From Crambe crambe (lineage: Eukaryota > Porifera > Demospongiae > Poecilosclerida > Crambeidae), in contig OZ004585.1 of assembly GCA_963924555.1 (NCBI GenBank), positions 6,399,488 through 6,463,487 of the forward strand: a stretch of 64,000 nucleotides of DNA, in the 5' to 3' direction. The notes beneath the pieces are model-generated. The model had not been told where the DNA came from, did not search any database, and saw nothing but the letters and a program-made list of their open reading frames with translations. Position numbers and translations under genes: made by a program. Below, one piece after another: positions 15,966 through 63,512 of the stretch (within the stretch, counting starts at the first letter, position 1; each line of letters begins with the position of its first letter).

Positions 15966-17095
15966 CTAGCTAATTCTAATGGAGTCATTATTACAACTAC
16001 TTTGTTTGCATCTTTTAGGACGTATCTTCATTTGAATCTTTGTAAAATGGACGGGAGTTCTTGATGCAGTATACCAGCCAACAAGATAATCAGGATTAAG
16101 ACTTGGGGGGTCTTGAGATGGGTACTTGCCATTGATATTGGAAAAAACACAGGCATTGTACCACCAAGCACCACCATGCACTATGGCACAGTTTTTACCT
16201 CCAGCTGCATCATTATCACGATCTGGAGTACTGAAGGACATTCCATTTTGATAAGACATAGCATCGAATGTGCTTCCTACACCATGAGCCTGTCCGATGG
16301 TTAGCCTGTAGTTGGTTTCAGCTCTGCCAACTCGGAATAGTTGGTAGGTCCACACCAGAGATGGTTCTGTCCCATTCCCAATTTCAAATCTCACTTCTAC
16401 ATCTTCTCTGGTGGTAAGGCAGTGAATTCTTTCCAGTCCATACCAGAATTCTCCTTCAAGATCTCCAAAGCCATGCACATAGTCAGTCCAATTGCGATAA
16501 AAGTCAATGGAACCGTTAATCCTGCGCTGAATAACCAGCCATTTTCCTCCGTCTGTGTCCATGTCACAGCGGGCATGCACTTTGCTGCTTGCACCAAAGC
16601 TTGCTGGAGCATTACACATTATCAGCCATTTCATAGCCACCAGAAGAGGCAAGAGGCATCAAATCTTTTATCTGAAAATGTAGACAGTTAATAATATTAT
16701 ACTTTTTTATGCATAAGCCCAAGGCTGTGTAATACAAATTAAGTACCAAAGTTGCTAACCAACTGAACTCTTCACTCTTACAATTATATATAGCTAACCT
16801 GGCAGTAGTCATGATAGCCAGCTGTGTTACAGTTCTTACCTGGCAGCAGTCACGATAGCCAGCTGTGTTATAGTTCTCCTTCGATGCTATCAGATCCTGC
16901 AACAACTTCTGGTGTCTCTGTCCACAATCGGAGGAACTCCCTTGCACTTCTGCCACCATCGATGTCACAGAAGCAACTATAATCATGATGATGACTCCTA
17001 TAGTGATGAAGATAACAATAAGGATGATGATGAAAATGAAGAGTGATGCCTTTCTTTTTCGAATCTTATCAGCTCTTTTATATGCTTTCAGTCAT
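15966..17095 (-). pseudogene. FReD pseudogene, type A, nearly complete
   Basis: Exon 2 (15966-16677) is close to the open type A copies, but one extra T at about 16619-16620 shifts the frame at EMAD, just before the first FReD cysteine. Downstream, [10 protein letters not shown] to the C-terminus is intact in the shifted frame. In exon 1 a cysteine of the stalk is changed (ENYNTAG instead of ENCNTAG), and the end of the exon is tandemly duplicated (about 16793-16876), giving two splice donors. The start region has lost a few bases after ATGACTGAAAGC, which puts a stop before the membrane anchor. Several independent lesions make a full-length product unlikely. Confidence 0.8.
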
Positions 17096-21804: not shown

Positions 21805-21842
21805 AGTTGGATAAGGTCGGATAGGAAACGCCCATCATATGC

Positions 21843-28857: not shown

Positions 28858-28964
28858 TATATAGACCATGAATGCCATCATGCAATATCGCGTGATCATA
28901 GCATCTCAGCCGATGTGTTAGCTACTATGATTTGAAGTGGAACAGATAATTATTTCCAGGAGTC

Positions 28965-31824: not shown

Positions 31825-31949
31825 CAACCGCCCGCATTGTTTTATTGAAATGAATTTTATTGCCATTATTATGACGTCATCCATTGCGCATGCGCGTGCA
31901 TGCTTGATCAGTGCAAAGCAGCTGCTTATTTGCACCAGCAAGAGTGGGG

Positions 31950-34900
31950 ATGTCTGTCCTAGCAAATGTCTTGGTCTACTGCGTTGAAACTAAGAAGACT
32001 CTCGTGCAGTGGCGGATAACAAGTGTAAGTCCTCCTGATGTTACTTTCGTGAACTTTCTTCAGGACAGCATCTTAAACCAACCCTGTGAGTTGAAGAATG
32101 TATATGTTGGTAGACAGAAGGAGAGTCTTGATGAAGCAGACATGAATATGTGTGTCTCTCAAGTTGTTTCTATGTTTGGCCCCTTTATTAAGTTCCATGT
32201 CAAATCAGAGAGCTCTAGCACACTTTCCCAGCCAGCTACTGCTAGAAATGCTTTTGATGTCCTACAGGAAGGACAACGAAGATTAGAGGCTAAAAAGTTA
32301 CCCTCCCATATTGAGCCGAAGAATAAAAAGCACAAGCTAAGAAATGATATCATAGATATGCTTGATCAAAATGGCCTACTTTTCAAACATGGTGAAGTAT
32401 CTTCGCATGGAGAGCAATTAGTCCATTCTCTTACTGACACTTTATGGTATATAGATGGACACCATGAGGTGTTTAAAGGACAAAATTTAGCCATTCCCAA
32501 TTGTTTTGACACTTTTTGTGGCTACAACAAGCCAGAAGCATCTAAACACAGGAAACGGGAAATAGGGAACATGTCGTTTGAAGTACTAAAGCATAGTTCT
32601 CGTCAGCTCTTTTCATGTTTGCAAGCCTCTTATTGGGACAGACAAAGCTGGAGTACTTTCCGTGACAGCGTGGAGCAGTTGGCTCGTATTTTAGCTGAAT
32701 ATAGTGAGTATTTGGGGCAAAAGAATAAACAAATGAGGCTGCTTCATTCTCGGTTAGTGCCTGCTCGAGAAGTAGGAGATAATCTGCATTTCATGTTCTT
32801 ACCAGTTAGCTCCTCTTCATTTTCTTCCTTTAAGTCTTTAGAAGACAAGCTAAAGTCTTCAGAGTTTTTTCAGTCACTGTTAATAAATGATTTTTCTCCT
32901 GCAGATTCATTCAAAAGATATGAATATATGCAGAAGCTGAAGAAATTTGGCTTGCCATTTGCATCAGCTTTACTAACTTACTCGCATGGAAACAATGTTG
33001 GTAACCTTAGTTTTATCTGGCGAGTTCATAACAATGATTCGGATAATTATAGCAGATGTGTGCACGTGATTGAACAAGTTAAGCTACAGTTACCATCTTA
33101 TAAAACTCGTGCTATGCGTGCTGCTGCCTTTGATAAGTTTGGAAGAATTACTCCTGGAATGAGCCCCACTGCTTTCCAGTACATTTACAAGGAGCTGACT
33201 GGTGATTACTCAGCGTGTTCCAACTTGGATTCGAGTGAGATTGAAAAAAGAGTGAAACTTGCGGTTGATATGGAAGATAGTGATGTCATTATTGATTTAC
33301 GGCACTTGAACAGTGGACGCAAGTCAATATATGATACATTTTGGCTTGAATGTTCAAAATTCATTCAGGAATGTATAGGCCAAGCTGTGGATGATCGTCG
33401 TCATCAGCAAGTCACTCACTTTGCTACTGCGATGTCTGTTCCTGATCTGATTTCTCAGGTAGCAAAAAAGTTACCTGAAGGTGCTGCAATACCTTGCGAG
33501 TCATGGGTGCGCCTTCAATTTTGGCCGAAGAATAAGCACTTGTGATCTAGTTGTCACTATACTGGTAAGCTGGATATAAAGTGTATGGTTCAATCTAGGC
33601 AGTTGAGGAAATCCCATGAAGATGCTCATTATGCTGCAGCACTTTTTCGCTATGAGCGGCAGATGGCTGTGACATTTAGAAACCACAGCATATTCGCATG
33701 TCTAGATGACAAGCATAGAGTTCCTGTTGGGGAGCCGTCATATCCAGTAGCGGCAGTGGAGCGAGGAAAAAGGGTGATAGTTGCTCGTAATCAGTCTTTT
33801 ATGGTTGCTGATCACGACTTCACAAGATTCAGTTTGGTGCCTTCTGTGGACTTCTTTGTTGATATTCCTGAAGAAATATCTGCGTCTTGGTACACTGGTC
33901 AAGTAATAGTGAATCTTAAGGAAGGATCCATGGAACCATCTTCTCCACTCCGCCATGCTACTGAATTACTACAGTGCATTAAACAGGAATATGCATCTGT
34001 GCCACCTGTTCTTTTTACTTACACTGACGGTGGCCCTGATCACCGCCTCACCTATCTCTCTGTTCAGTTAACCTTGATCATACTATTTCTGAAATTAGAT
34101 CTGGATTTTCTCTGTGCTGTACGTACAGCACCTGCTCAATCATGGAAAAACCCAGTTGAACGAGTGATGTCAGTGTTAAACTTGGGTTTACAAAGTGTGG
34201 GGCTCATGAGAAAAGAACGTGAACATGATGTGGAGCAAGTTTTGAAGAACTGTAATTCACTGAAGCAAATTAGAGCAGCTGTGCAACAACAACCCAGCCT
34301 GGCCTCTGATATTCGTGATTCGATTGAACCAGTGAAGTTGTTACTATCCGAGTTGTTTGTCAGACTATCATTAAAAGGGAAATTTATCAAGATGAGCACA
34401 CCTGCCACTGGAGAAGAAATGGAAGAATTGAATGAACAACTTTGAAACATAGACTTTGTTGATCTATCCAATTCAGTGAAGAAGTCCATGTTAAAGAATA
34501 TGCAAAAATTAAAGGAGTTTATGGATCACTGCTGTCAAATTAGGCACTACAGCTTTTGTATCAAAAAGTGTGGTCAAAGTGATTGCCACATTTGCAAAGA
34601 ACCCCGACTCCCCCCAGAAGTCTTCTGTGATTTGCACATGCTTCCTGACCCAACACCAGGAGATGAAGGCCATTATCGACCTTTTGATTCTGTGTATGGT
34701 AAGACCACATCAGAAGTTCACCGACCTTCTCTTTCAAAGTCTAGCAAGAGAAGAAAGACACTCCCATTCATTGCCAGTATTCAACATGCCAAGAATACCA
34801 ATGTACTGGTTGAATGCGTCGAATGTGGAATGTGGCGTTTGACGTATTCAAGAAAGAAATTGTCGGCACAGGCTCGAAAAGAACTGGATAAGAAATTGAG

Positions 34901-35144
34901 CGAATTCGATTTCAGCTGTGGCTTTAACTTGTCGGACTTAGATCTACCCGACTGCCTCGTGGATGTTCACTGCAGGGATCTCAGATGTGGAGATCCAGTG
35001 GAAAAGTTATATTACTCTATGGGATATGAAAACATTTGTATATACTGCTCAAGTGAAGATGACATTATTAGACCAGATAAGTGTTACCCTATTTGTATGA
35101 CTTGTGCTGATACAAAGCAGCCAGTTACAAAAGCAAATGTTTAA
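31950..35144 (+). pseudogene. Transposase of the 31794-35302 element, one frame with two TGA codons
   Basis: Three open stretches (to 33545; 33546-34445; 34446-35144) are all in the same frame, separated by single TGA codons at 33543-33545 and 34443-34445, so the ancestral protein was about 1,064 residues. The first ATG in frame is at 31950. The N-terminal half has no motif known to me. The middle holds a likely RNase H-fold DDE triad: Asp in CLDDKHRVPVG, Asp in TYTDGGPDHR and Glu in NPVERVMS. The C-terminus is Cys/His-rich (CGQSDCHICKEPRLPPEVFC, then VECVECGMW and CIYCSSEDD...CYPICMTC), probably zinc-binding. Both TGA codons can be explained by CGA to TGA decay. The superfamily is not clear. 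Confidence 0.75.
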
Positions 35145-36643: not shown

Positions 36644-37835
36644 TCAGCATGAAATATTTGGTTTGCATCTTTTAGGACGTATCTTCATTTGAATCTTTGT
36701 AAAATGGACAGGAGTTCTTGATGCAATATACCAGCCAACTTCGTAATCAGGGTGCAGTCTTGGAGGGTTTTGTGATGGGTACTTGCCATTGATATTGGAA
36801 CGAACACAGGCATTGTACCACCATGCACCGCCATGTACTATAGCACAGCTAGCACTATGTGCATCATTATCACGATCTGGAGTACTGAAGGGCCTTCCAT
36901 TTTGATAAGCCATAGCATCAAACGTGCTTCCTACACCATGAGCCTGTCCGATGGTTAGCCTGTAGTTGGTTTCAGCTCCACCAACTCGGAATAGTTGGTA
37001 GGTCCACACCAGAGATGGCTCTGTGCCATTCCCAATCTCAAATCTCACTTCTACGTCTTCTCTGGTTGTAAGACAGTGAATTCTTTCCAGTCCATACCAG
37101 AATTCTCCTTCCAGATCTCCAAAGCCATGCACATAGTCAGTCCAATTACGATAGAAGTTAACAGAACCATTAATCCTGCGCTGGATAACCAGCCACTTTC
37201 CTCCATCTGTGTCCATATCACAGCGGGCATGCACTTTACTTGAACCGAAGCTTTCAGGAGCTCTACATACATCAGCCATCTCATATCTCCCAGTAACAGC
37301 AAGAGGCATCAAATTCTTTATCTTAATTGTAACAGTGAAAATACATAATTATGACATGATTAGGTAACTACATTGGAACCTGTTATAAAGGTCACTGTAT
37401 AAGCAGGTCACCTCTCTATATTATATAACAGCCAGGGATCAAAAGGGCTTTTAAGTTATAGTGTACATTTCAACCTGAGTCAGCATGCAGGTCAGCCCTT
37501 TTATAACTTGCCGGACTGAGGGTGACCACTATATAAACAAGGTTCCACTGTACGTCAGGCTCATACTAGCAAAGTTGTGATTAATTTAATATGCATGAGA
37601 GTTATCTAGAAATACAGAGCTAGCTAGCCAGCTAATAGGGTAGCTAATTATTATTTCGTGTCACCTGGCAGCAGTCATGGTAACCAGCTGTGAGGCAACT
37701 ATCCTTAGATGCTATCAAATCCTGCAATAAGCGTTGGTGTCTCTCTCCACAGTCCAAGGAGGAACTTCCATCTGTGTTTGCTAGGAAAATGGACACCATG
37801 ATAATGAAGCTGACAACTCCCATGGTCATGATCAT
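36644..37835 (-). CDS. Fibrinogen-related domain (FReD) protein, type B
   Basis: Two exons: 37665-37835 and 36644-37321, phase 0, predicted 282 residues. Exon 1: MIMTMGVVSFIIMVSIFLAN, a signal peptide or signal anchor, then the stalk with LDCGERHQRLLQDL and DCCQ and donor CAG|GTGACA. Exon 2: complete FReD with [24 protein letters not shown], the calcium motif FSTPDRDNDAHSASCA and HGGAWWYNAC, ending RPKRCKPNISC. It is the only open type B copy in the window. Its splice acceptor differs from the paralogues: they have ttacag, this gene has ttacaattaag, still AG but with few pyrimidines. Likely role: extracellular glycan or pattern recognition, by family. Confidence 0.8.
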
Positions 37836-38706: not shown

Positions 38707-39793
38707 TTATTTACAACTACTTTGTTTGCATCTTTTAGGACGTATCTTCATTTGAATCTTTGTAAAATGGACGGGAGTTGTTGATGTAGTATACCAGCCA
38801 ACAAGATAATCAGGATTAAGACTTGGGGGGTTTTGAGATGGGTACTTGCCATTGATATTGGAACGAACACACCTATTATACCACCAAGCACCGCCATGTA
38901 TTATGGCACAGTTATTACTGATTGCATCATTGTCATGATCTGGAGTACTGAAAGGCCTTCCATTTTGATGAGCCATTCCATCAAACGTGCTTCCTACACC
39001 ATGAGCTTGTCCAATGGTTAGCCTGTAGTTGGTTTCAGCTCCGCCAACTTGGAATAGTTGGTAGGTCCACACCAGAGATGGTTCTGTCCCATTCCCAATT
39101 TCAAATCTCACTTCTACATCTTCTCTGGTGGTGAGGCAGTGAATTCTTTCAAGTCCATACCAGAATTCTCCTTCAAGATCTCCAAAACCATGCACATAGT
39201 CAGTCCAATTGCGATAAAAGTCAATGGAACCGTTAATCCTGCGCTGAATAACCAGCCATTTTCCTCCATCTGTGTCCATGTCACAGCGGGCACGCACTTT
39301 GCTGCTTGCACCAAAGCTTGCTGGAGCATTACACATATCAGCCATTTCATAGCCACCAGAAGAAGCAAGAGGCATCAAATCTTTTATCTGAGAATGTAGA
39401 CACTTAATACTTTAAAACTTATACAAGATGTAGCTATAGGTATATGTATCTATGCTATTTTATGCATGCATAGGCCCAAGGCTGTCTTATGGAAAGTACC
39501 AACTGAACTCTCCACTCTTAGACAATAATTATGTAGCTCACCTGGCAGCAGTCATGATAGCCAGCTGTGTTACAGTTCTCCTTCGATGCTATTAGGTCCT
39601 GCAACAACTTCTGATGTCTCTGTCCACAATTGGAGGAACTCCCTTGCACTTCTGCCACCATCGATGTCACCGAAGCAACTATAATTATGGTGATGACTCC
39701 CATAGTGATAATAAGGATGATGATGAAAATGAAGAATGATGTCTTTCTTTTTCGAATCTTATCAGCTTTTTTATAGCATATGCTTTCAGACAT
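38707..39793 (-). CDS. Fibrinogen-related domain (FReD) protein, type A, full-length
   Basis: Two exons: 39542-39793 and 38707-39387, phase 0, predicted 310 residues. This is the only copy with the complete N-terminus: MSESICYKKADKIRKRK (basic, cytosolic), a hydrophobic helix of about 25 residues (FFIFIIILIITMGVITIIIV), then stalk and DCCQ. The layout is that of a type II membrane protein with the FReD outside. Exon 2 has [31 protein letters not shown] and AWWYNRC, so the calcium site (D, D, D kept) and disulphide cysteines are complete. The donor is CAG|GTGAGC and the acceptor is ttctcag. A fragment of a close copy lies inverted at 46575-46820. Confidence 0.85.
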
Positions 39794-49077: not shown

Positions 49078-49687
49078 ATGATCAGAACTGAGCTAGTGGA
49101 TTTGTGGAAATCTCGGGTCCAGTTTCTGAGACAGTATTACTGCTTCCAAGGCCACAAGCCAAAGCAGAGAAGCTACTCGGCCATTTCCAGCCATGTCTGG
49201 TTCATTCCTCTCATATTGACCTTATGGTGGTTGTTGATAGCAGTCATCTTTTTGTATGGTCTCAAGATGGATCATTTATTGAATGCAGGTATGAATTTGA
49301 AAGCTGTAGAGCTAGCTAGCTTGCTGTATTGAGTCCTCATGATCATTTTCAACGCTGTATCCATAGGTGAACTTCTGAGATATGTGCTTTATTCGAACTA
49401 CTTGCTGACAGTATTGTGGTGGAAGCTTGCAGTGACTGAATCTGAAGAGACGACCAAGACTCGCTTTCGTAATGGCCCACATTGCTCATGTTCCATGTGT
49501 ATTAATCACCAAAATGGCTGCACTATCACAAATGGAAATGTTTCCACTGTGATATTACCTCTTAGGGATAACTGGAAGTGTTACCAAAGAAGAAGAGTTC
49601 TTCACACTGTCCATTATTATGATCATCAGGTGGTGACTCCCTTACTATTGATATTGGCTGGTGATGTTGAAACAAACCCTGGTCCTG
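49078..49687 (+). CDS. NLR exons 1-2: transmembrane leader ending in 2A
   Basis: Exon 1 (49078-49288) encodes MIRTELVDLWKSRVQFLRQY and, at residues 41-62, a strong transmembrane helix (WFIPLILTLWWLLIAVIFLY). Exon 2 (49367-49687) adds a moderately hydrophobic YLLTVLWW, a Cys cluster (CSCSMCINHQNGC) and the 2A region. The ATG at 49078 is chosen because exon 1 then joins exon 2 in phase 1 (GCAG|GTATGA, then CCATAG|GTGAAC). An alternative start within exon 2 (49339) would lie in the intron, and splicing would remove it. The released leader would be a 176-residue membrane protein. Confidence 0.7.
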
Positions 49688-52600
49688 GTGAGTAACTGCT
49701 ATACATACGTAGTTAACTTAATGGAATGTGGAGTCCTTACAGTTTACACTAAGATGTGTTAAGTACCTGATGTGGAATGTCAGAATGTACATTATGAAAC
49801 CACACTACAACCGGGACATGTTATTTTAATGACCACCTGTTCTACTGTGCAGTGCCAGCAAATTACACCCAGTGCACTGTGACCTTTTGATGACATCACA
49901 ACAGTGGGTCAGGAGCTGTAAACCATAATATTTCATTTCTGACAAGGTTTTGTGCACATCTTATCATATCATATTAAAGCTAGCGAGATGTCCGGTGTAC
50001 TAAAGTTGACCAGTTTGGAGAAAGTTGGAAAAGTAGTGCCAATAAAACTTGTATTGGTTCAACATACAAGCAATCTGATTGCTCCACACTATAAAGAAAG
50101 GACTAGTTAAGGCACCATTCAAGTCTCAGAAACCTTTTATGAGTAGAAAGTTTGCTGTGTCACTCCAAAAGAAGTGATTTTTTGTGACATTTCATTGTCC
50201 TGCAGTTCAGAGTGTGTTCAAGCTAGACTTAAGTTTTTTGCATGACTATAGCTATAGCTCATACTGTTGCAAAATATTAAAGGCCTAATCCATTTTGCAT
50301 CAAGATGTCCGATGTACTGAGGATAGGTACCCATGCCGAAATCTCATTAGTTAGCCCTGCCACATCAGAGAGGGCACGAGTTATTAAAGGTAAAGAGAAT
50401 GATCACCAAAAAATGAAAGCACTGGCTGAAAGCATTTCTGAGATATCATAAGTAAAGTACAGTTCCACTCCATTGACATAATACTGACAAGCCACCAGAC
50501 AGGAAGTGATCACATAATTAATGTGTCTTAGTGTAATTTCATTTTAATTTCTCTGTATGCAGGCCCATAGCTAAAGTCTATTCGCGTTCACCTTGCCTCC
50601 GAAAGTAGCTGTGGTATAGTAAGCTTACGTAAGAACGCGTGTTAATCCAATTAGCCACATAGTTATGGCTGGAGGTATGCGTAGGTAGTTGGAGCCAAGC
50701 CAAGTTTAGATCAAGTTCTTTTCTCGTTTCTTTTCTCGTTTTTGCGTGACTTTCTCTCATGTTTGCCATGACTCTCCCTGGACTTCTGCCCTGTTCTTCT
50801 ACTGGACAAGCCCCAGAGAGGTAGGGTGGTTCAGCTGACATCTCAAGTCCTTTCCTGATCCCAGCAACTCCTGGAGGGTTTAGCAATGATTATTCTGTAT
50901 GTTCTGTATAAGCTAAACTGCCGGGAAGTTTAGCAGTGATTCGAATATTGTAGTTAAACTTGAAAATGTGACTTCTCATTGATTCTATCGATCTAGTTAG
51001 CTAAAAGATTCTGTGATTCAGTTTTCTAGTTAGCTGAACTATTCTATAATTCATATTTCTTAGTTTTAACCAGCAGTTACTTGCGTAAGCTAGCTAACTT
51101 ATTCGAGAATCAGTAGCACCTGGCAGCCATTGTTGTTGCTCTATCGCGCGCAATGCGCGTGCACTACATTTCTTGTGGTGAATGGCAGCTCCATACTTTG
51201 CTTATGGGACATACAGCTAACTTCCTACTGGTAAGGAATTGGTTCTTATAAAAAGCATCATCATAAATCCCGGATAATTAGCTAGCTGCTGGTGTTTGAA
51301 ATTTTGAAATTGGTCAAGAATTGAGCAAGTTATCGCGGATATAAGAATGGCAAGGTGAAGAACCCCCTCTTCAAAAACTCTGGCTAGCTATGGGCCTGCA
51401 TACAGAGAAGTTAAACTAAGACACATTAATTACGTGATCACTTCCTGTCTGGTGGCTTGTCAGTATTAGGTCAATGGATAACTTTAGAACCCCCTCTTCA
51501 AAAACTCTGGCTAAAGTCTATTCGCGTAAAGTTATCCATGCATTAGCATGGAAAATTTTTTTGCCTGACTGCACCCACTTTTCTCTAACCACACACCCTC
51601 TTTTGATAACTGCCCACTTGATTGTTATTGCTAAAAAAATGACTTAGCTAGCAGCTGCAATTGTTTATATGAGGTAGTCAGAAGATGAGTAGATGATGAA
51701 GATGGTAACAATCTACTACAGGCTCAGGCTCGCAGTCACTAGACTACACAGTAATGCTACACTGTGAAAAGAGTGCTGATGCTTCTTGGCCGTCTTTGCC
51801 AACAAATCAAGCCCATGCAGAGAACTGACTAAAAGACAGCAATTAAAAAAACAACAGAGATTGCAATGTACACGAACTAGGTGATTGTTTGACGTGCCAA
51901 AGAGAGAGCCATGTTGAAGGAGAATCTAATGAAAGAATCCAGTACACATACTTCAATCAAGCCATGTGTGAGAATCATTCAAAATGGCAGTTTGAAAGCA
52001 TTAAGCAGCAAGAATACTAGCTGTGACAACCTTACGACTCTTTCGAGGATCAACGAGAATGGATTTATCCAGAAGTCGTAGCCATAGCTTGAGTCATTTA
52101 ATGGGGGAACTAGAATTTCACTTTTGTATTAGTCTATAGGCGGCACGCGCGGCCGTCCGAGTCATCCTTACATAGAGAGTGCTACCGCACTCTCTGATAA
52201 GATCACTTACCATAAATCAGGAAATTTTCGTTTCAATAATAATTTGGATTTATAATTTTCATATGAAGTCGAGATTCTGTACAAAATTAATTATTGATGT
52301 GCACATTCAGTATTGAATAGGGCGCTTGAACAATAAAGGTTCTGGCTGTGGTCTGTTTTTCTGGTGCTACTTACTGTACAATGGAGTACAAGAGGCCTTG
52401 TCGTATATAAAGATATTCTCCACTTTCATGGAATTTTCAATTTCATTGTTAGCAGAAGCAATAGCAAGAAGATATACTCCTAGACAAGGAACCCTTGTGA
52501 TCAGGTAGTCCTTCTCTGGGCTTGAAAAATCGTCGAAGATTGAGAGACATCATTAAACTTAAACAGCAACTGGGAAAAACGGAGTGATCTGGCAGCTGAC

Positions 52601-55100
52601 AAATGTAGCCAGTACACATGGAAAATTTTCATACCATGAAATAAAAAATATTTTTGTATACTTTATGTGGAGTATAAAAATATTTTTTAAATTTCCCAAT
52701 TTACTCCCCCTAACTTATGAAATATTTCCCCTTATTTGTCTCACCCATTAATTGACTCTGTGTAATTATTCCTTTCAGGTATTGATGCAGATGATACCAC
52801 CATTTTGGGTATGTGGAATGCATAACTCGATCTATTATAGCCCACTATAGCAGACCTGTGTCACTTGTGTGGGCTTAAACTCTTTTAGATTGTTCATTAT
52901 ATAGAGCTAGAATTTTTTTCTCTGAGCATGCCCAGTTGTGAATACAGTTATAGTGAGTCTTGGTACTAAATTGAATTCAAGGATGAGAATTGCTGTAGCC
53001 TTTTTCATCTCAGTCTCCTCAATGCAGATTTGGATGATATCAGTGACGTAATGGATGAGCTGAAGAATGTCTTGTCATGCTATCATGGAATAGGTGGAAG
53101 GCTCCACCTGCCGAATGACAAACTAGAAGAAATTTGTGGACAAAAGTTGAATGCAGCTGATGCCATGCATAAGATTATAACAGAGTGGCTAAAACAGAAT
53201 TATAGTGAGAGTAGATTTGAGCTCCCAACTTGGAAGGCTCTGGCTGATGCTGTTGAACACCATGCTGGAGGGGATAACAGGGCTGAAGCTGAAAAGATAG
53301 CACACAGACATAAAAAAAGTGAGTAGGTACTACTGGATTCATATCTTATTCTTGTGTGCATTTGATTTTCATGCATGCACGCTCTCTTCTTGCTGAACTT
53401 TTTTGAATCGCACACAGCCATCCCTATTTTTCTCTCTTTTTAAAATATTTTTTTTAATTTATGGACACATAAACTGGAGATGACTTTGTGATGCAATTAC
53501 TTGCCTCGCTTCCTGCTTGGCAAATTATACATACATATACATTAATTTACACATAATTATGCATATTATGAGGGTGAAAGGTGATCATCACTAGTGAACT
53601 TCAGTCAAGTAACCCTTTCCCATCACCAATATTACCAATCTACGAGCTAACTATTCCTACTTCACTCCCATGACAGGCCAAGATGAGATATAGCTTGGTA
53701 ATATTGGTGACGGGTAAGGGGTTACTTGACTGAACTTAACTCTCTTGTTGCAGCAATACTGAACCACACAGCCATCCCTACTTTCCTTTTTTAAATATTT
53801 GTTAATCACCTTTTTTGATGTAATGCTCTATTATTTTATTATAGGCAACTGGATGCTGTGATCCTGCTATCCAAGTTAAAGTTCATGTATTGTAGCTATG
53901 TAGTTCATTGGAGATTTCATCATAAAATTGTATGAGCCGAAATGAATCTGATCTGGAAGGACTAATGCTCGTATCTATACAGTTTATAATAAAAATTGAC
54001 CTAATTTTGTATATAATTTTCTAAAGCCTTTACCGGTGTTATGCATGTAGCTACCTTGATTACTGCTGCATCAAGGCTTGATTCATAACCAGACTAGTGC
54101 CTAGGTTTTACGCTCTGAGCAAGAGACCAAGAGAAAGCTAATGACAGATTCACTAGTTAATTGTGAAGTCAAGGTTCAAGAATCATGTGTACAGGGGTGG
54201 GGCATGAAAGTGTCTGCCATGTTGTAGGTTGAAAGCTAGCAAGTTGGAAAATGACATGCTATTTTTGAACATGTTGAGTTAAAGATAAAGGATTATAACA
54301 CAGTCGATTTTGAGTAGTGTGGTATAAAAATTATAGCATTTGAATGAACCATTTCTGAAATAAGTTGTTTGATGATGATGATGAATGACCAGATGAAAAC
54401 AGAAATCGCTGTAAAATGATACTGCTCTGTCCTCTGCTCTTCATACTTGAGTCCTAGCACATTGAAGGTGTTCTGTCTTCAAGTTGAGTTGCTGACTATA
54501 GGAGGGAAGTATTCTGGAGTTATGAAGGAAAAATTAATAGTCCAATGGGGCAATTCATGCCATGCATCCCGTACTATCGTACTCTCTGATATGTCTGTCC
54601 GTACATATGTCTGTAATGTATGCATTATTCATGAGTTTACATAGTGTATCAAGAGTGCGTTAGCACTCTCTGAGTAGGGATGGCAGGTCAAAGGTCATAA
54701 GACTGTATAAACTAAAACTCTTCTTTCTCTTCTGCCCTTACTCTACAGGTTCTCAGAAGGCTAGAGTGAATTATTACATCTACAAAGAAGAGAGGAGAAT
54801 GTTCAAAAACCAAAAATTCATTCACTAACATAAGAAAAAAACGAGTTCTAAAATTGACTTTTGTCTTTATCAGAGAGTACGGTAGCACTCTCTATGTAGG
54901 GATGACTCGGATGGCCGCACGCGCCGCCTAGTATAGACTAATACAAAAGTGAAATTCTAGTTCCCCCACTTAGACCTAACAAAAGCAACTGTGAATGATT
55001 ATCCAGCCTACTAGAGCCTACTACAATGTGCAGACCAAGTTTCAGGACCAGGGAGCTTACCATTTCAGAAATACGGCAAGCAGGTAAATCGGTTCTTCTC

Positions 55101-55151
<51 letters not shown>

Positions 55152-58100
55152 CATCATCATTATTCTTAGACAACCATATCTCTCGAACCACTCAAGCTAC
55201 AGCTATGATTTCTGGATAAATCCACTCCAAATTCTACCAACCTTTTCTACTCGTTGATCCTCGAAAGAGTCGATGAAAAAGGAGACACTACGGAGCACAG
55301 CATGCACTCGACTAATTCAATTAGGAAGCCATCTTTTTGATAATATGCACGCGCAGCGCATGTATTTGATATCCAATTATTCGAAATTCTAATATTACTC
55401 AGCTGTCTCTAGCATGCTAGCTAGCTAACTAGCTAACTAGCTAGCTTAGACATAGATAATTTAGTATAGATTATCTATGCTCTAGATAATGATGATAGAC
55501 TACTGTATTGACTCGGGGATTTAGATTCACCACGGTAGACTATTTCAGCATCTTTGACCTCCAAGTATAGCTCAACAATAACACAACACCTTGACTCGTT
55601 GATTAGGCTGGTATGCTATTGGAGAACTATTCTTCTTTCATCTGTCCCTGCATACACATAGAAGAATGAATTCTATACATAGCTAAAACCATAAAAGAGA
55701 GGGAAAAAAGACCAGGAACAAGTAAGGGAAAAAGCATTTCGTGAAAAAAGATGTAGGGATGACCACTTCTCAAGAAAGTAAGGAAACAAGAAGGATGGAA
55801 TCTTTATTCTGTATATCCAGCCAACAATCCCTACATATACGTCGGGTAGCTTCAGATTACAGTGCAGTAATGTACGCATGTCCTATAAGCCACACCCACT
55901 AATGCATTTCCCCCATAGTTGAATAACTCCCCATATTTCACTCTGAACCTTATTTGTTTATTTGTTTGTTTGTTTTAGGAAGTATGAATGTTAATTGTTA
56001 AAAGTTATTGCTGCATAGTTTGTATAATTTCAAGGTGTAATAATGTAATTTCTCAGAAAACAGATGAAGCACAATTAAGAAAATATTCACAGAAGAATTC
56101 AGCTGAAAGTTTATTTTTCTTTCCCCTCTATAGAACTGGAGATGAGTACTGGCACAAGTGGTATGAAACAATCAAGAGAAAGAGTCCACAAAACAGATGA
56201 TGAATCAGATAATGGTGAGCTTTTTCAATAGCTAGTGCTTTAATTTAATAGGGATTTGATTTGGATGTTTTGCTCCAAACCGTCAAAAATAATTCCAATC
56301 ATACATGTGTAGCCTTTTGCACTCCCAGTTACTACAGACATCCTGTGAGCATTCTTCAAAAAAGATTGAGCAAGTAGTTACTTATGTCATACAACTTATA
56401 TCTGAGTTAAAATCGATTCATCAATTAATCCACCCCAAACATGCTAAATGACCAGACCACTTCGCCAGATAAACCTTTCAAGGGACTAAAATGAAATAGC
56501 TTTCCTTAGATTAGAGTGATCGAAATGTACATACATATGTAGGGACCATGTTTAAGGGATCAGTTCTTGATTTCTAAACAGGATCCCACTGTGTATATCA
56601 CAGTGATAAAACGTAGGGATAACAAGTTAAACATCCAGGATTAGTATAACGTGAACATGAAAACAAAAGGTAGGATTTTATCACAAAGGCAGGAGAGTGG
56701 GTGATAGAAAGAAAAGAGAACTTTTTTTGGATACTTCATACTTCATGTTCTACATTGGTTGAGTACAGCTATAAACAATATTATATTGTAGGATAGATAG
56801 CTAGGTATGTAAGGTGAAGTTCGACTATGTATGCTATGGTGGTTGTAGCTATCTGCCTTTTTTATTAATTTTTTTTTTTTTTGGGGGGGGGGGGGTCATC
56901 CCTATGTAGTATGTGTGTGCCTGTGTGTTTTGTACGAAGAGCTAAGCTATAATGAGATGCAGCACTGACCATCTCCTGCAAAAGTTTAAGTGATGTAGGG
57001 ATAAATGCTCATGAGCTGAATTAATGGATGAGATTATGCAAGGATGAATTTGACTAGGTGACGTGCCCACCATTCAGCATAGCTATGTATGTCATGATGC
57101 AATAATTAGATACCTTATTCTCTACCCACTTCTATATGATGGATAAAGGTCCCCCGAGTTTCTTCAGGCAGCATCAGGGAATTTTCATCCGACTTATTGA
57201 CATCAGCACTGGCAATAGTATCATACCCAAACTCTTAAGTAAGAGACTTCTGACTGACGATGAATATCAGACTGTCACACTGAAAACAGAAATTGAAAAT
57301 AAAAGAAAGCAAGATCTCAGTGATATTCTCTATGATAAACCTCCGTGGGTTCCTTGGATTGTGTTGGACTGCCTGCAAGATTTGGAGGAACCAACACCTC
57401 ACCATAATCACATTTTACTGGCAGATAAATTGAAGCGTTACCTTGATCAACAGTGGCCCGAAATCTCCAAACTATTATGCTCTTGTCAAATTCAACACAT
57501 ACACTCCGTTCTCGATCAGAGAAATATTATGTTGGATCGCATCATAAAAACCCTCAAGGATATCTTCGTTGAGGGTAAGATGCAGATTCAAATTCCAGTG
57601 TCAATTGGGGACTTTCCATCACTTATTCTCTTCCTTCATAAGATTGGTCTTTGTAATGATTTGGATAATGACATTCTATGCAAGTTACTTGTAGAAGTTA
57701 GTGCTGATGATCTTAAGGAGCATTTGAAGGCCTTCTCTGATGCTCGCAGTGATCATTATATTGATACTCTTGATCCTATTGAACCTCCTTCAGAGTTCTT
57801 CTTAGCACACACGTTTCATAGCTCACCAAGAGTGACTTATATGCAGCTGTTCTACATCAAAGATATTTTTGCACACTTTCTTAAGATCCCACGATATTCT
57901 TTTTCATGCACTGCATGTAAAATGGAAGATGAGTCAACCATCCTGGTCTGGCAGTTTCCAGTTCATGTGTGCAATTATCTTCAAACAACATATGACAGTA
58001 ACTGTGTTTTCAAAGAAACTCTCTCTAAAGTTTGTATACAAGATATTAAAATTATTAAAGATGATGCAGCTGTCAGGCAGCGAAAGAGGCGGAGGAATAT

Positions 58101-61100
58101 GGAAGGGTCGTCAACCAGTAATGAATGTGAGACAGGTAGTGCCATCAAGGTGTCAAAGCTGTGTGATAGTGGCTCAAGTCACCAAGGTAAGGGTGTGTAT
58201 AGTACACATTTGCCTTGTATCCTGGCCCTGAATTTCCCACCACTGAAAAGTATATTCGAATTAGAAAACAAAAGGCTTAGATTTCAGCACTCAGTGAGCT
58301 GCACCCCCCCCCCCCTCCCAAAAAACTATCCACTATCTTCCGGCATTTTTAGCGAGTTCTCATTTTAGCCAATTTAGTGACTAAGGCCTAAATCGCTAAA
58401 TATGCTGCACACTATAATCATAGCCACAACATGCATGATTTGTTAATTTTAAGGGAAAAAATTAGTACCCCCCAAATCCATAGTCCCATGTAGCTGACCC
58501 TATACCAACCACAAGGGAAGGAAAGGGTCTGGTGACATGTAATACTTGGACTTGTGCACTAGCAGAAGTCTAATTATGACATTAAACAGTAGCGTGCATG
58601 AACCATGCATATGGCATGCATCTTCGCAGTCACAGAGCTACTTCGATGATGTCATCAAGTAACATGTCATCACAATTCATTCATTTAGTAGATTTCTTGC
58701 TAAAAGTACAAGTCTCAGTATTACATCCTTTCCTTCCCTTGTGGTTGGGCTGTGCCAGACAAACAAATCCTTTGGTTTTGAAACTGCTAAGATTAGTACC
58801 CGCTAAAAATACCAAAAGGACCACAGGCTCTAAAAATTTTTCTTCAAGGCAGAGTATGGAGCCTGGTGCCCACAGTTTGTGCATGCACCCAAAAAACCCC
58901 ATCATTTGGTGGGTCTCAATAATTGTCCGTGACACATGATGCAATATTGTTGAATCAGCATTGCAGCTCTAGTTTATGTACGTATCTTCGCAGATGGTAT
59001 GTTTTACGCCCTATCTCAGCTGCCACCTTACTGATCAAGGAGCAGCAGCAACCAGTTCTCTCCATTTATCAGGGAACCAACTTGCTTTGGTAAAAGTAGC
59101 TAATTGGGTTTCCTTCCTGTTCAACTTGTATCTTCACTCATTGCTCTGATGGTGGACCAGGCTAGAAGTCCGAGGGGGAATGGTGTAGAGGTTATGATCA
59201 TCTCCTCTGGCTTTAGAAGCGCCAGTCTTGTCTTCTCTTCTCCAGAAGCTCATTGCAATAGCTTTTCATGTCAGTATCTTGTAGCACATGCTTGTATGTC
59301 TGTGACGTTATGCACCGTCATGAAGTGTAATATGCGAGAATTTCATGTGAAAATTTTGGTGCTTGCATGAACAGTCAGGTTCCAGGTTCTTTTTCCTGCC
59401 CCCACATAATTTGCCTGGGTATGAGGCTGATCCATATTATAGCTCTCTTGATGCTTGGCATACATTACTAGCCTTGATTATTATGTTCTAAGTGTTCTTA
59501 ACTAGAACAAGCCCTTCCACTGAAGTCAGTAAAGGGTTGACGTGCCACAGTTCAGTTTGTACTACCTGGCTGCTACAATTTGGCTTCTTTCGCTGTTCAT
59601 ATGTACCTTACTCTCTGGTTTCTTAGACAAAAGACAGGCTAGCCTAGCTAGCCAAGTAGTTGCTTGGCAATGTTTTAGTCGTTCACATACTTTTTAGTGT
59701 CTTCTGACTTTCACTATAATGATAGTTCTGCACATTTTGATGTGTAATTGAAGTTAGGCTGTCAACCACATATACAGTTAACAATCCATGTTGAGTAATT
59801 ACTCAGACTGCACATTTCTATGTGTAGAGCTACTTATCGCTTCCGCCTGATAATAATGTTAGGCAAGTGTAATTAAAAAATCATTATCTTGATTCAGAAT
59901 CTTCACCTTCAACTACTGCAAATTTATCATCAATTACTGTCACAGAAAGTGACAACTTTATTAAAAATCTAAAAGCCACTTATATGGATACCAATTTCTT
60001 TAAAAGAAGTGCTGGTCCACTCTTTGGAAGAAGCATACATTTTATTAACCTTGCTCTTATCAAGAAGCAAGGAGCAAGTGATGATGACAAACTGAGAGAT
60101 AAATTCTTACGAGATTCTCTCCATGGCTTAGTGGAAGATATTATGAAAAAGAAGGTACAAATTGCTAAGCATGAAATATTCAGTTATGGCAGTGATTCAA
60201 GGAAGTTAGTTCTGGTTGAAGGATCACCAGGAGTTGGTAAAACTATGCTTGCAATGAAACTCTGTCAAGATTGGGCTAAAGGTGAGATTCTTTCAGAATA
60301 CAATATGGTCATTCTGGTAACTCTTCGTCGATTCCGAAACAGAAATTCACTGCAACTGAAAGATTTAATCAGTATATATAGTGAAGGTGAATTTGCAGAG
60401 AATATGGCACAAAAATTACTGAAATCCGGAGGTGCCAAAACTCTAATTATTCTTGAAGGGTGGGATGAGTTGCCCCCTGTGCTTCGAGAAGAAATGTCTT
60501 TCTTTTCTGATCTAATCCTTGCCAACAAGCTCCCCAAAGCTTCGATAATGGTAACATCACGACCAACAGTTAGTGGTACACTGTATGATTACATGGACGA
60601 GAGGCACATTGAAGTGCTGGGATTCAAACCTAAACAGATTACTGAATATATTCAGTGCCATTGCTCCCAAGAAAAAGCCGATTTGATATGTACACATTTG
60701 CAGAGATTTCCAAACCTTAAAGCTCTAGCTCACATTCCTCTCACCCTCTCCATCATATGCAAAGTTATAAGAGATGAAGACGTTTTACCTTCTACTCTCA
60801 CAGAATTATACAACAAATATATTTGCCAAAAGGTTTACCAGGCTGTGAAGAAAAAAGAAAGCGAGTTAACAGGGCTGAATTCTATCGAAGAATTAAAGGA
60901 CGAAGAGATGAAAATAATAATCAAAAAGCTTTGTGAAGTAGCTCTTGATGGTTTGGTGGACAAGTGCTATGTATTCAATTCAGAAGATTTGAGATGTACT
61001 GTGCATGGCTCATTCGATGGATATGGCCTATTAAATGTCATACAAAGTCCAGCAAATGCTGGTTGTAAACTTTTATACCAATTCATTCATTTATCAATCC

Positions 61101-63512
61101 AGGAATTCCTTGCTGCCTATCATATCCAGGAGTTACCCAACCAAGAGCGACTTGAGCTTTTGAAAAACCACAGAGAAGACAAGCAATTTCAAAATGTGTG
61201 GAAATTTTTGGCTGGAATTACCAAACTTAAAAATAGAGAATTTCAAGATACCATAATTTATAACACTAACCAGTCTAACAAGTCTCAACTTTTCTTGATA
61301 CATTGTCTCTATGAAGCACACAACAGTGAGATATGTAGCATTGCTGCAAGGAAGTTGCAATGGACACTGAATCTGAACAATATGAGTCTGAACACAACAG
61401 ACTGTCTGTGTGCAGCATACACTGTAACTAGTGCCGGTGGAACATGGACAATTGACCTTCGAGCCTGCAACATAGGTGAAGATGGACTGGAAATTTTTAA
61501 GCAGCATTTGGTAAAAAGTGATGATCATGAAAGTACAGATTTCAGTATCAAGAAGTTCAAGTAAGTATTGAATTAAGTGGTAGGTATGTAGATAAAGAAT
61601 ATGATTTAACTCTCTTTCAGTTTGATCCACAATCATATCACAGTTGATGCATGTCGTCATCTTGCAGATATTTTGAGGCACAATGTACATATTGCTGAAT
61701 TACAGTGAGTATAATAATAATTATGCTATACACATACAAAACATTTCATACAGCTATAAGTCTTCACTGGGCCAAGCTAAGCTCCATTAATTAGCCCTCA
61801 GCACAAGGGTTATAGTACTCAGTCATCTATGTATCTGTTACATCTGCTACTGGGCCAGCACCATTGGAATGCAGTGTTTAATTTGCTTCTGATAAAGGCT
61901 TTATCCCTTCTGCAGCCAGTAGCAATTAGAATGCTTCAACTTCAGCCTCAATGATACTCTCCAGTATTTAAATTTTAAGTTAAAGGCTTTATTCCAGAAA
62001 GAAGGCAATATTAATTTTGTAGCTTCTACGCAACCATGTACTCATCATGGAATGCATGTGGCTCAATAATTAGTTCTAGCTCTAGCTCATCAGTGATCTC
62101 CAGTATTTAGCTAGTAATGCAGACCTGTGCCTCATGTGTCACCTCGGTTGGTTTGCTGTTGTTGTTTTGTTGTTATTTTTCAAGGGAAAACTGCATAGCT
62201 ACTAAGTAGATTATGCTGCACAACTGCCCTTATTGCAAGCAGAAGAGAAGAACCTTGCTCAGCAGACAGAAAAGAAAAATAATATAGCTAATTTGTGCAG
62301 ATATAGAACTGCATAATTGATTTTGACGTGATAGGCACGTCAACGTTGAATATCACTATATAATGAAATAAAATAGTGTCCCACCAGCCTCACTATTACA
62401 TGCTTCTTTGATTTCATGATAAAGGGTCATAATGCATGCAGCTATTGAGATTATAGCCATTCATAATGATGTGCAGTGAACCAATGCGATCACAGGAAAG
62501 ATTGTGCTTTAACAATACTCCCCCCTCTCCTTTTCAGCCTGGCTTCCAATAAATTTGGTGATGAAGGTGTTAAGGAATTATGTGATGTTCTTTCTAAGAA
62601 TAAAACTATCAGTGTTCTTCAGTAAGTTGAATTACATATTCTTAAGATCAAGAAAATTGTGTTCCTTAAACTTTTCGATAGTAAGTTAGAGGAGCAGATC
62701 AATTTAGTAGCCACACACCTACAAATTCTGAGTCCTGTCCCTCAGTATGGTGACCTGAAACTATGGTTTAACAATGAAATATTTTATGATGATTCAATAG
62801 ATTTTCACGATGTGGACTAACCAGTTTGTCAGGAAGATCTTTGGCTGGAATGCTAAGAGAAAATACTGCTATGAAGGAATTATTGTGAGTTCCTGAATAT
62901 TATTTTTTGGCATTTGGTTTGTGTGAGTGGTGTGATTGAAATCGTAATCATCAAGTCTATATATATCACTAACTGATCACTGGTTCTTCCTCTTGGTGGT
63001 ATTCAGAAGTATGATTGCATTCCAAGCACACTTAAGCTACGCAGGTGTGAAAACCCATTCTTACCTCCCAAGTCTTAACACACCAATGCAATATATGCAA
63101 CTCATGAAAGATGTTGGGACATGAAATATCTTTCTTATATATCTTGGTACACACAGCAACCAAATAATGAGATCTTAAAAGATTAAGGGGGTGAAGTAGG
63201 GATAGTTTGGTGGTTTGGGTATGATTATAAAAATTAGGAGGATCGAGTAAGGAGGTAACTTCTTGTTCATGAACTTACATGCAGTGTCAGTTTTGAGAAA
63301 CTTGGTGATGATGGGGTAATTCCTCTGGCTGAAGTCGTTGCTGAGAACAAGACATTGAGTGAAATTACGTGAGATACCTTCACAGTGTCCATACTTTACT
63401 TATGTACGTACGTACATGCCCACATTAGATTATCAGATACTCAAATCACTATAAAAAGTCTGAAGGAGTTCCAGAAATCACTAAACGTGAACAATACATT
63501 CAAAGTTATTAG
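49078..63512 (+). CDS. NLR receptor: membrane leader - 2A - DEATH - CARD-like - NACHT - LRR
   Basis: At least 12 exons joined in matching phases: 49078-49288, 49367-49687, 52779-52808, 53028-53318, 56134-56214, 57110-58186, 59898-61560, 61621-61704, 62538-62621, 62801-62884, 63285-63368, 63429-63512. Junctions are phase 1 until the NACHT exon and phase 2 after it. About 1,364 residues lie in the window; a stop was not reached, so the gene may go on beyond the right edge. Order: membrane-type leader (1-176), 2A motif, short linker, DEATH (about 188-284), CARD-like (about 320-385), a region of unknown fold to about 670 with a basic patch (RQRKRRR), NACHT (about 671-1100), then LRRs. NLRs of this type are cytosolic sensors that oligomerise through NACHT and recruit death-fold partners. 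The gene model is by eye, without transcripts. Confidence 0.8.
49636..49686 (+). other. 2A-like ribosome-skipping sequence (GDVETNPG|P)
   Basis: The peptide is VVTPLLLILAGDVETNPGP. It has the complete D-V/I-E-x-N-P-G-P consensus at 49663-49686, preceded by a hydrophobic helix as in active 2A sequences. In known cases the ribosome omits the Gly-Pro bond and continues, so two proteins come from one frame. Here the break would fall between residues 176 and 177, one codon before the exon end. Activity is inferred from the motif. Confidence 0.8.
49688..52778 (+). other. NLR intron 2, with inverted-repeat elements
   Basis: A 3.1-kb intron. Inverted repeats of about 95 bp at 50471-50568 and 51388-51478 (gatcacttcctgtctggtgg) flank about 0.8 kb and look like the ends of a non-autonomous element. 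The left arm of a further inverted pair lies at 52028-52200. Open frames in the intron (50578-50886 minus, 52326-52508 plus) show no domain. Confidence 0.6.
52028..52200 (+). repeat. Left arm of inverted repeat enclosing the DEATH exons
   Basis: gaggatcaacgag, ggatttatccaga, gggggaactagaatttcact and agagagtgctaccg occur here and, inverted in the same order, at 54869-55268. Identity is about 90 percent over the best 98 bases. Confidence 0.8.
52779..53318 (+). CDS. NLR exons 3-4: linker and DEATH domain
   Basis: Exon 3 (52779-52808) is only 30 bases (GIDADDTTIL), between cctttcag and GG|GTATGT. Exon 4 (53028-53318) encodes DLDDISDVMDELKNVLSCYH, then LHLPNDKLEEI, IITEWLKQNY and PTWKALADAVEHH, the helix pattern of a DEATH domain including the typical W-L and T-W-x-x-L-A motifs. 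It mediates homotypic assembly in NLR and receptor pathways. After 2A cleavage, exon 3 would give the new N-terminus, starting with Pro. Both exons lie between inverted repeat arms. Confidence 0.8.
53319..57109 (+). CDS. NLR exon 5 (56134-56214) and surrounding introns
   Basis: Exon 5, 56134-56214, lies between acceptor ctctatag and donor AATG|GTGAGC and encodes LEMSTGTSGMKQSRERVHKT and DDESDN, a low-complexity linker of 27 residues; both junctions are phase 1. The introns hold dispersed repeats: 54128-54400 (copy of 4268-4545) and 55670-55870 (inverted relative to 11259-11410). A T/G homopolymer run lies at 56868-56895. No other gene is supported. Confidence 0.65.
53594..53742. repeat. Hairpin element in NLR intron 4
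   Basis: gtcaagtaacccttt...accaatattacca on the left is matched by tggtaatattggtga...ggggttacttgac on the right. It is a MITE-like foldback of about 150 bp, with a unique loop. Confidence 0.8.
54869..55268 (-). repeat. Right arm of inverted repeat enclosing the DEATH exons
   Basis: Inverted counterpart of 52028-52200, lengthened by an insertion that includes an ATT microsatellite (55101-55152). Confidence 0.8.
55101..55163. repeat. (ATT)n microsatellite
   Basis: About 17 units of ATT followed by a few ATC units, inside the right arm of the inverted repeat at 54869-55268. Confidence 0.9.
57110..58186 (+). CDS. NLR exon 6: CARD-like domain and uncharacterised region
   Basis: 359 codons, phase 1 on both sides (aataattag acceptor, which is weak; CAAG|GTAAGG donor). 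Residues about 9-75 of the exon read as a CARD: FFRQHQGIFIRL, IIPKLLSKRLLTDDEYQTV, KRKQDLSDILYDKP. The following 250 residues (LKRYLDQQWPEISKLL, MQIQIPVSIGDFPSLILFLH, VTYMQLFYIKDIFAHFL) are helical and not assigned. Near the end is a basic stretch (RQRKRRR) that could be a nuclear localisation signal, then a Ser-rich linker. The open frame goes on into the intron, where it loses coding character. Confidence 0.72.
58187..59897 (+). other. NLR intron 6
   Basis: 1.7 kb, GT-AG. A poly-C run lies at about 58304-58315. Open frames on both strands (58598-58939, 58681-58944, 59104-59370) show no domain. Confidence 0.55.
59898..61560 (+). CDS. NLR exon 7: NACHT NTPase domain
   Basis: Acceptor ttgattcag; donor CAA|GTAAGT (phase 2). 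The exon encodes about 554 residues with a complete NACHT: P-loop GSPGVGKT (60221-60244), LVTLRRFRN strand, Walker B LIILEGWDELPP (about 60442-60477), sensor-type SIMVTSRPT, then the winged-helix part (PLTLSIICKVI, LTELYNKYI) and a region reading FIHLSIQEFLAAYHI, typical of animal NLRs (FLAA motif). In Walker B the first acidic residue is Glu, not the usual Asp. The C-terminal ~100 residues lead into the LRRs. Confidence 0.9.
61621..63512 (+). CDS. NLR exons 8-12: leucine-rich repeats
   Basis: Five exons of exactly 84 bases (61621-61704, 62538-62621, 62801-62884, 63285-63368, 63429-63512), each one 28-residue ribonuclease-inhibitor type repeat with phase-2 boundaries. Examples: LASNKFGDEGVKELCDVLSK, FEKLGDDGVIPLAEVVAEN. 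Consensus-like N-x-h-x-D-x-G-h-x-x-L positions are visible, weaker in the third and fifth. The repeats would form the ligand-sensing arc. The last donor (AG|GTAAGA) shows that at least one more exon follows. Confidence 0.85.

Follow-up and report, generated by a model that had tools for sequence, protein, structure and literature searches.

Does this locus of the sponge Crambe crambe encode one receptor, or a membrane protein and a receptor that part company during translation? The question comes from a StopGo/2A motif at the end of a two-exon membrane leader, ahead of exons typical of an NLR (Table 1). In the window, i.e., the whole stretch of 64,000 nucleotides analyzed here, the only DNA pattern coding for DxExNPGP was found at 49663-49685 of the forward strand. 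The junction of exons 1 and 2 is in phase 1; together they encode 177 residues counting the last Pro, 176 of them being the predicted released part. The leader has a single strong hydrophobic helix (residues 40-58, Kyte-Doolittle 2.52), and its C-terminal end, LLILAG-DVETNPGP, is a canonical StopGo/2A site: the core agrees with D(V/I)ExNPGP, and the hexapeptide before it belongs to the leucine-rich (A/S/C)G class, a favourable upstream context. The 176-residue chain with one strong transmembrane helix and a 2A end, described in the initial annotation, was thus borne out. We consider that the exon 1-2 unit is probably (about 0.72) a self-separating N-terminal cassette ahead of a DEATH-like receptor.

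Table 1. Features of the leader, DEATH-like and NACHT-LRR region, in window coordinates.
Feature	Position	Strand	Description
Leader exon 1	49078..49288	+	start codon, basic N-terminus, strong transmembrane helix (residues 40-58)
Leader exon 2	49367..49687	+	second hydrophobic helix, basic cysteine-containing stretch, 3'-terminal 2A motif, phase-1 donor
StopGo/2A core DVETNPGP	49663..49686	+	LLILAG directly before; putative skip between Gly and last Pro
Exon 3	52779..52808	+	ten-residue linker (G)IDADDTTIL; predicted start of downstream product P-G-I-D
Exon 4	53028..53318	+	DEATH-like helical exon
Exon 5	56134..56214	+	short linker exon, donor GTGAGC; similar stretch in L070
Two in-frame ATG codons (57136 and 57139)	57136..57141	+	possible start site if CARD-NACHT-LRR is a gene of its own
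Exon 6	57149..58186	+	CARD-like and further helical stretch; acceptor AAAG|GT at 57148 or TTAG|AT at 57109 (latter by eye)
Exon 7	59898..61559	+	NACHT, winged-helix and helical regions
LRR exons	61621-61704, 62538-62621, 62801-62884, 63285-63368, 63429-63512	+	ends by eye; may extend beyond the window

Across the genome we found 210 coding patterns for DxExNPGP, versus one for the reversed control pattern, and the 2A motif of the window is real, beyond chance. Within the Crambe crambe genome there are about 65 relatives that cover nearly the full length of the leader exon; relatives of exon 1 were located on C21 (L097) and C8 (C8:6512k, which is L043, and C8:805k), and the linker exon 3 (IDADDTTIL) is also present at L071. 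The leader is long and keeps cysteines and a basic stretch. Of the public proteins matching the leader, the best 61 were examined, and 59 of them keep the motif (it is absent from P0007 and P0056); among 36 chosen diverse rows the invariant columns were G-D-x-E-x-N-P-G-P only, although this apparent conservation is inflated because both the search profile and the selection rule contained the motif. One leader elsewhere matches that of the window at just 27 of 93 residues, yet at 14 of the last 14 (the motif again being part of the selection rule). Exon 2 evolves under constraint, with a dN/dS of about 0.33 (680/703 pairs). A leucine-rich hexapeptide ending in (A/S/C)G precedes the motif at 74 of the 75 distinct sites with sequence read, corresponding to the class named motifs 2 and 6 in PMC12846837. 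Several 2A sites in the genome have leaders that, by eye, are similar to one another in nothing but the motif.

That the motif is a functionless chance match or the remnant of a non-LTR retrotransposon appears highly improbable: such elements do carry 2A sites in other organisms (PMC4981915, PMC11512398), but the 210 sites against a single reversed control, the exon structure, the common splice phase and the constraint all argue otherwise, and at 24 loci (the window and 23 related ones) the next large exon is DEATH-like, so that the 2A does not lie inside the frame of an element. We rejected this explanation on the counts, the splice phase, the constraint and the neighbouring exon context. Judging by its title, Odon 2013 reportedly deals with 2A sites of non-LTR retrotransposons in the genomes of multicellular organisms; the core is the same as here, whereas at the loci read in Crambe crambe it belongs to a spliced cassette and not to an element's frame.

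The position of the motif relative to neighbouring exons was followed using the listed sites, with 12 of the 210 lying outside the list. Among the 32 closest relatives of the DEATH-like exon (the window included), 24 have a 2A site within 5 kb upstream on the same strand, and none has one within 5 kb in any other orientation. The same-strand upstream arrangement within 5 kb was seen at 22 of 134 NACHT loci (other arrangements within 5 kb: none), and a second type of helical exon has a 2A site within 1 kb upstream in 41 of 150 cases (other arrangements within 1 kb: none). These supporting loci are not independent, because most sit in tandem arrays: 13 of the 24 DEATH-like exons belong to one array on C8, 14 of the 22 NACHT loci to one on C10, and 22 exons of the second helical type to one on C9. 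With wider limits, 2A sites did occur downstream of NACHT (3/134 loci at 8 kb, 11/134 at 12 kb) and of the second helical exon type (2/150 at 5 kb). The leader is optional, since a listed 2A site in that arrangement (same strand, at most 5 kb upstream) is missing from 8 of the 32 DEATH-like exons and from 112 of the 134 NACHT loci. A 2A-type site behind a membrane leader, with the DEATH-like exon next in matching phase, is an order that recurs at 23 further loci, which supports this part of the initial annotation.

The domains downstream are of unequal firmness. NACHT (Pfam, E 3e-23) and LRR (LRR_6, E 2e-8, on manually joined exons) are firm. The CARD stays below the Pfam cut-off (19.6 vs 23.9 bits), and the DEATH-like exon 4 of the window had no Pfam recognition. 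Among 16 aligned members of the DEATH-like exon, matches below cut-off were obtained to Death in four (best E 0.003) and to WGG, an unrelated family, in ten (best E 0.004). The AlphaFold model of the DEATH-like exon has five helices and low confidence (pLDDT 54). For the second helical type as well as for the exon in the window, the name DEATH comes from pattern rather than Pfam, and of the series DEATH, CARD-like, NACHT and LRR originally proposed, the last two stand while the first two are weaker than had been stated.

Does the leader belong to the same gene as the NACHT exon? Up to and including NACHT, the seven exons form a chain of 1,211 residues free of stops, the donor of exon 5 is good, two in-frame phase-1 acceptors lie near exon 6, the gap between exons 5 and 6 (56214 to 57140) contains neither AATAAA nor ATTAAA, and at the C21 locus the same leader and DEATH-like exon are followed by a NACHT after 4 kb. 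With these features in view, we lean slightly towards a transcript that continues into CARD-NACHT-LRR. Somewhat less probable, though still a serious contender, is the presence of two adjacent genes, one with leader, 2A and DEATH-like exon (49078 to about 56.2 kb), the other a leaderless CARD-NACHT-LRR gene beginning at ATG 57136/57139; the 2A would then still act, on a DEATH-like protein rather than on the window NLR. The acceptor of exon 6 is weak and the in-frame ATGs lie just before the exon body, and the homology to a C20 paralogue, 88% across exon 6, starts at position 57137 of the window, at the ATG. The two NACHT paralogues on C20 showed no leader within the stretches read: about 5 kb upstream of the first copy are without a 2A-like motif and hold an ankyrin-like frame on the opposite strand (by eye), and for the second copy, the 2.1 kb of upstream sequence that was read had no match to the window and shares 136 bp with the upstream region of the first. 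Furthermore, the 10.2 kb between 2A and NACHT at the window are an outlier among the NACHT loci of the genome, and another leader locus of the same family, on C8, runs to a GTPase-like frame instead of NACHT. A scan for bacterial promoters and terminators (56200-57200) was uninformative for an animal gene.

The general claim of 2A leaders on NLRs is better founded elsewhere in the genome than at the window locus. The compact 2A-NACHT loci L090 and L091, and also L096, have 2A, DEATH-like exon and NACHT in order, as does the C21 locus with its leader of the window type; at L018 and L020 the 2A is followed by an exon above the Pfam Death cut-off. Other 2A sites stand ahead of DEATH-like/ankyrin frames or, in one case, of a GTPase-like locus, that of the C8 leader mentioned above; its "GTPase" label comes from P-loop-like and DTGGQ stretches recognized by eye, since the frame had no sequence match in Pfam or PDB.

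Direct observations are the motif and its conservation throughout the family, the phase-1 structure, the constrained leader, and the fixed succession of leader, 2A and DEATH-like exon, with 2A located upstream of NACHT elsewhere; from them we infer skipping at the window 2A. The cassette would be translated first, as a small membrane protein; the nascent chain would stall the ribosome at NPG|P and the leader would be freed; translation would then resume on a DEATH-like receptor with an N-terminal Pro. Most chains would separate, one mRNA yielding leader and receptor, and an unskipped minority may be membrane-targeted. This may amount to a "switch" of receptor location, as put forward in the initial annotation. 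With a slightly lower than even likelihood, skipping is near-complete and serves co-expression instead of dual targeting, leader and receptor coming from one mRNA and perhaps being partners. The leader of the window family is long and constrained, with conserved cysteines and a basic stretch, as against 26 residues in sea urchins (PMC4981915), and unseparated product was reported to be very low for two viral sites when enough of their native upstream sequence was present (PMC12846837); however, one sea-urchin leader was only about half separated in vitro, and its unseparated form was reported in the exocytic pathway (PMC4981915).

Under the self-separating cassette reading, the fate of a fused NLR after a failed skip depends on the topology of the leader. 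With a single transmembrane helix (type II) it would go into the ER lumen; if the second, weaker helix is also inserted, it would be tethered on the cytosolic side. The charges of the leader and its second helix are compatible with a two-pass hairpin. A luminal C-terminus, on the other hand, would be in keeping with an N-glycosylation sequon that is present in 41 of 45 leaders from the genome itself but in 30 of 59 from databases. In AlphaFold models of leader exon 2, the first helix alone was confident (residues 1-20, means 87 and 92).

The closest precedent is in Strongylocentrotus purpuratus, whose NLRs carry N-terminal 2A-like signal sequences (PMC4981915), as the initial annotation had correctly stated. 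There the 2A core is N-terminal to DEATH-NACHT-LRR behind a hydrophobic leader, and two products of a single mRNA were proposed, a layout that the window would share if its leader and NACHT exons form one gene. Unlike that 26-residue leader, the one in Crambe crambe has 177 residues, two exons, a separate transmembrane helix and a conserved part with cysteines, and it is not a short self-signal leader of the sea-urchin type. With the leucine-rich class of RNA-virus StopGo/2A (PMC12846837) it shares the canonical octapeptide and the hexapeptide ending in (A/S/C)G, whereas the Crambe crambe sites lie in multi-exon host loci and tandem arrays; the same paper describes cellular use of StopGo as rare. 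Sponge NLR models likewise include membrane segments, taken as putative membrane-bound NLRs in PMC12909245, a paper whose main text gave no match to the term "2A-like"; an intervening 2A would instead make such NLRs mostly soluble. Relative to the literature searched, the long conserved leader and its spread to other kinds of receptor are new, with the sea-urchin NLRs as precedent.

If skipping holds, the sponge NLRs annotated with transmembrane segments in PMC12909245 may partly be two proteins. The family offers many natural variants of the leader for studying what determines skipping efficiency. A freed membrane leader could be the partner or sensor of its own receptor. The N-terminal Pro-Gly that would be expected on receptors of the window's leader family may set their lifetime by way of a proline N-degron. 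With about 200 sites, often ordered with immune-receptor-like domains, StopGo would be a principal way of expressing one class of genes, in a lineage that appears distant from sea urchins. We give an even chance to the broader view that, across the whole animal lineage, a large share of the receptors with DEATH folds (NLRs, DEATH-ankyrin proteins, DEATH-GTPases) is expressed behind StopGo leaders. The approximately 200 sites would then represent an exchangeable cassette, from which a membrane protein is translated together with a receptor that starts with Pro. Overall, the pattern suggests that in Crambe crambe one message may often give two proteins.

Searching the 143-Mb genome for GAYNNNGARNNNAAYCCNGGNCC, we found 210 occurrences, against a single one for the same pattern read backwards, so the motif recurs beyond chance. 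The form D(V/I)ETNPGP accounts for 97 sites, and a further 106 (100 of the 106 listed) carry a different residue, from a codon starting with C, G or T. In 74 of the 75 distinct sites with sequence, the core is preceded by a leucine-rich hexapeptide ending in (A/S/C)G, which the available text of PMC12846837 describes as one upstream class of viral StopGo sites. The StopGo-type leader family is real and unusually widespread in this genome.

The window has only one match to the DxExNPGP DNA pattern, at 49663 on the forward strand. There, exons 1 and 2 encode an N-terminal membrane chain (the leader) of 177 residues, whose C-terminal end reads LLILAG-DVETNPGP. A 19-residue stretch (leader residues 40–58) reaches a hydropathy of 2.52 and has a basic N-terminal flank, confirming the strong transmembrane helix and GDVETNPGP end reported in the initial annotation, which was also correct in placing the start codon at 49078 and the end of exon 4 at 53318.

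Coordinates of the leader gene exons and of other frames in the window
Feature	Position	Strand	Remark
Leader exon 1	49078-49288	+	joins exon 2 in phase 1
Leader exon 2	49367-49687	+	3' end encodes 2A
Exon 3	52779-52808	+	phase 1 continued
Exon 4, DEATH-like	53028-53318	+	phase 1 continued
Exon 5	56134-56214	+	phase 1 continued
Fibrinogen-C-domain frames, five tandem copies	8048-8746, 12229-12927, 15969-16658, 36647-37348, 38710-39411	-	Pfam at 36647, others by likeness
AIG1-like GTPase frame	20062-21834	-	two matched GTPase stretches
AIG1-like GTPase frame	28950-30188	+	
Three consecutive long frames	31908-35141	+	single stops between

A search with exon 2 returned about 65 near-full-length relatives in the genome (counted by eye): 42 at 81% identity or more, window included, 17 at 52–61% and six at 41–48%. 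All alignments but one (64/65) extend to the 2A end, one of these with an internal stop. That copy (C8:730553), with its 2A kept, is a possible pseudogene; another (C11:2665928) has its nearest 2A site about 0.5 kb beyond it, possibly through an insertion. Fifteen 2A sites lie on one strand from C8:604279 to C8:1089206, some 21–51 kb apart, and the leader exon of the window matches every one of them. The motif recurs in 38 leader rows from 34 loci; a G/GT donor immediately follows the Pro codon in 37 of them and comes one codon later in locus L040, and the donor sequence varies among the rows. Pairwise dN/dS over exon 2 was 0.33, summed over 680 of 703 pairs that are non-independent, with four loci counted twice. 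Conservation averaged 0.994 in the octapeptide columns versus 0.78 elsewhere among 45 distinct leaders, themselves selected by requiring the motif. The leader of locus L087 is identical to that of the window in all of its last 14 residues, versus 27 of 93 outside them. Among public proteins we examined the 61 best matches (334 reported, 120 listed), and 59 keep [DG]xExNPGP; the exceptions are P0007, which stops before the 2A, and P0056, which has NLGP. Among 36 selected rows, these two excluded, the motif and its preceding Gly were the sole invariant columns. Since many public matches are only 30–46% identical, the family is, judging from these sequences, probably older than Crambe crambe.

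Of the 32 closest relatives of the DEATH-like exon in the genome (window included; E up to about 4e-23, out of 150 scored), 24 lie at most 5 kb downstream of a same-strand 2A, 13 of them in one C8 array; in no case is a 2A found inside that distance upstream on the opposite strand or on the downstream side. Another helical exon type, taken from locus L095, has no Pfam match and was called DEATH-like by eye. Its best 150 of 350 candidates were scored: 41 have a same-strand 2A within 1 kb upstream (a count by eye puts 22 of these in a single C9 array) and none has one in other orientations at that distance; at 5 kb the figures are 44 upstream and two downstream, both same strand. For NACHT, we scored the best candidates of two merged searches (134 loci), with distances to the 198 of 210 sites listed. 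A same-strand 2A lies within 5 kb upstream in 22 (14 from one C10 array), and in no other orientation within that distance; same-strand sites downstream of NACHT number three at 8 kb and 11 at 12 kb.

Individual loci vary in architecture. In L018 and L020 the exon after the 2A scores above the Pfam Death cut-off. L090 and L091 are compact, with 2A, DEATH-like exon and NACHT inside about 2–3.3 kb; Pfam Death falls below cut-off at L091 and gives no match at L090. L096 has a 2A, then a DEATH-like frame, then a NACHT start, at cut-off. L094 has a 2A, a DEATH-like frame (below cut-off) and then ankyrin repeats, an order shared by L095, where ankyrin was identified by eye. On C21, a leader and DEATH-like exon as in the window are followed by a frame with Ig and NACHT parts. 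At one locus on C8, a leader of the window's family is followed by a P-loop frame and then a Death-like frame below cut-off; the P-loop frame may be read as GTPase-like, and this part of the one C8-array gene read had no database match.

We give a probability of roughly 0.55 to the leader and NACHT sharing one transcript at the window locus. The seven-exon chain up to and including the NACHT exon (1,211 residues) is stop-free and, as the initial annotation had described, in matching phase, and common poly-A signals are absent between exons 5 and 6. Against a single gene, the 10.2 kb between 2A and NACHT is an outlier, the acceptor of the CARD-like exon 6 is weak, and this exon contains in-frame ATGs at 57136 and 57139. 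Two close paralogues on C20, with 92–93% NACHT identity, also point to two genes: the one compared at exon 6 resembles the window only from 57137 onward, and no leader was found upstream of either copy in the stretches read. The proposed 2A-NLR gene is partly supported at this locus. At L069 (C20:3897500-3905999), a frame on the opposite strand, which by eye resembles ankyrin repeats, is located upstream of the CARD-NACHT paralogue that has no leader.

Beside the leader gene, the fibrinogen-C-domain copies possibly form a lectin-like immune cluster. The three consecutive frames resemble either a mobile element in decay or a readthrough gene; two of the three were tested and had no Pfam match.

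If StopGo works here as it is known to, the leader would be let go at NPG and the downstream chain would start with Pro, here as P-G-I-D. Topology would set the fate of the unskipped minority, a cytosolic tether versus entry into the ER lumen. A luminal C-terminus is favoured by the one firm helix and by a sequon in 41 of our 45 leaders and 30 of 59 database leaders. A hairpin with cytosolic C-terminus is favoured by the basic middle part of the leader and by a second helix, predicted with high confidence, whose hydropathy is at least 1.6 in 16 of our 45 leaders and in 29 of the 59 from the database; a few of the database sequences may contain translated intron. Because the leader is long and under constraint, we suggest that it has an additional role of its own.

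N-terminal 2A sequences on sea-urchin NLRs, mentioned in the initial annotation, are indeed reported: in the available text of PMC4981915, 85 of 241 such NLRs carry one by one count, a 26-residue leader occurs in 14 of 87 entries, one such leader, tested in vitro, gave about half separation, and chains that fail to skip reportedly enter the exocytic pathway. The principle is common to both animals, but the leader here differs. Sponge NLR models with transmembrane segments have been described (PMC12909245), the available text of which does not contain "2A-like", and no sponge report of 2A leaders was among the papers listed by our literature searches. Whereas the sea-urchin 2A sits on NLRs, here it is also found on non-NLR receptors. 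Nine sites reading DVELNPGP lie in tandem from C1:3553873 to C1:3988060 (L009–L017), and at L009, the sole locus of these checked, an Ig domain is predicted about 1.1–1.5 kb downstream of the 2A. This would mean an extracellular-type protein, not a DEATH receptor, behind that 2A.
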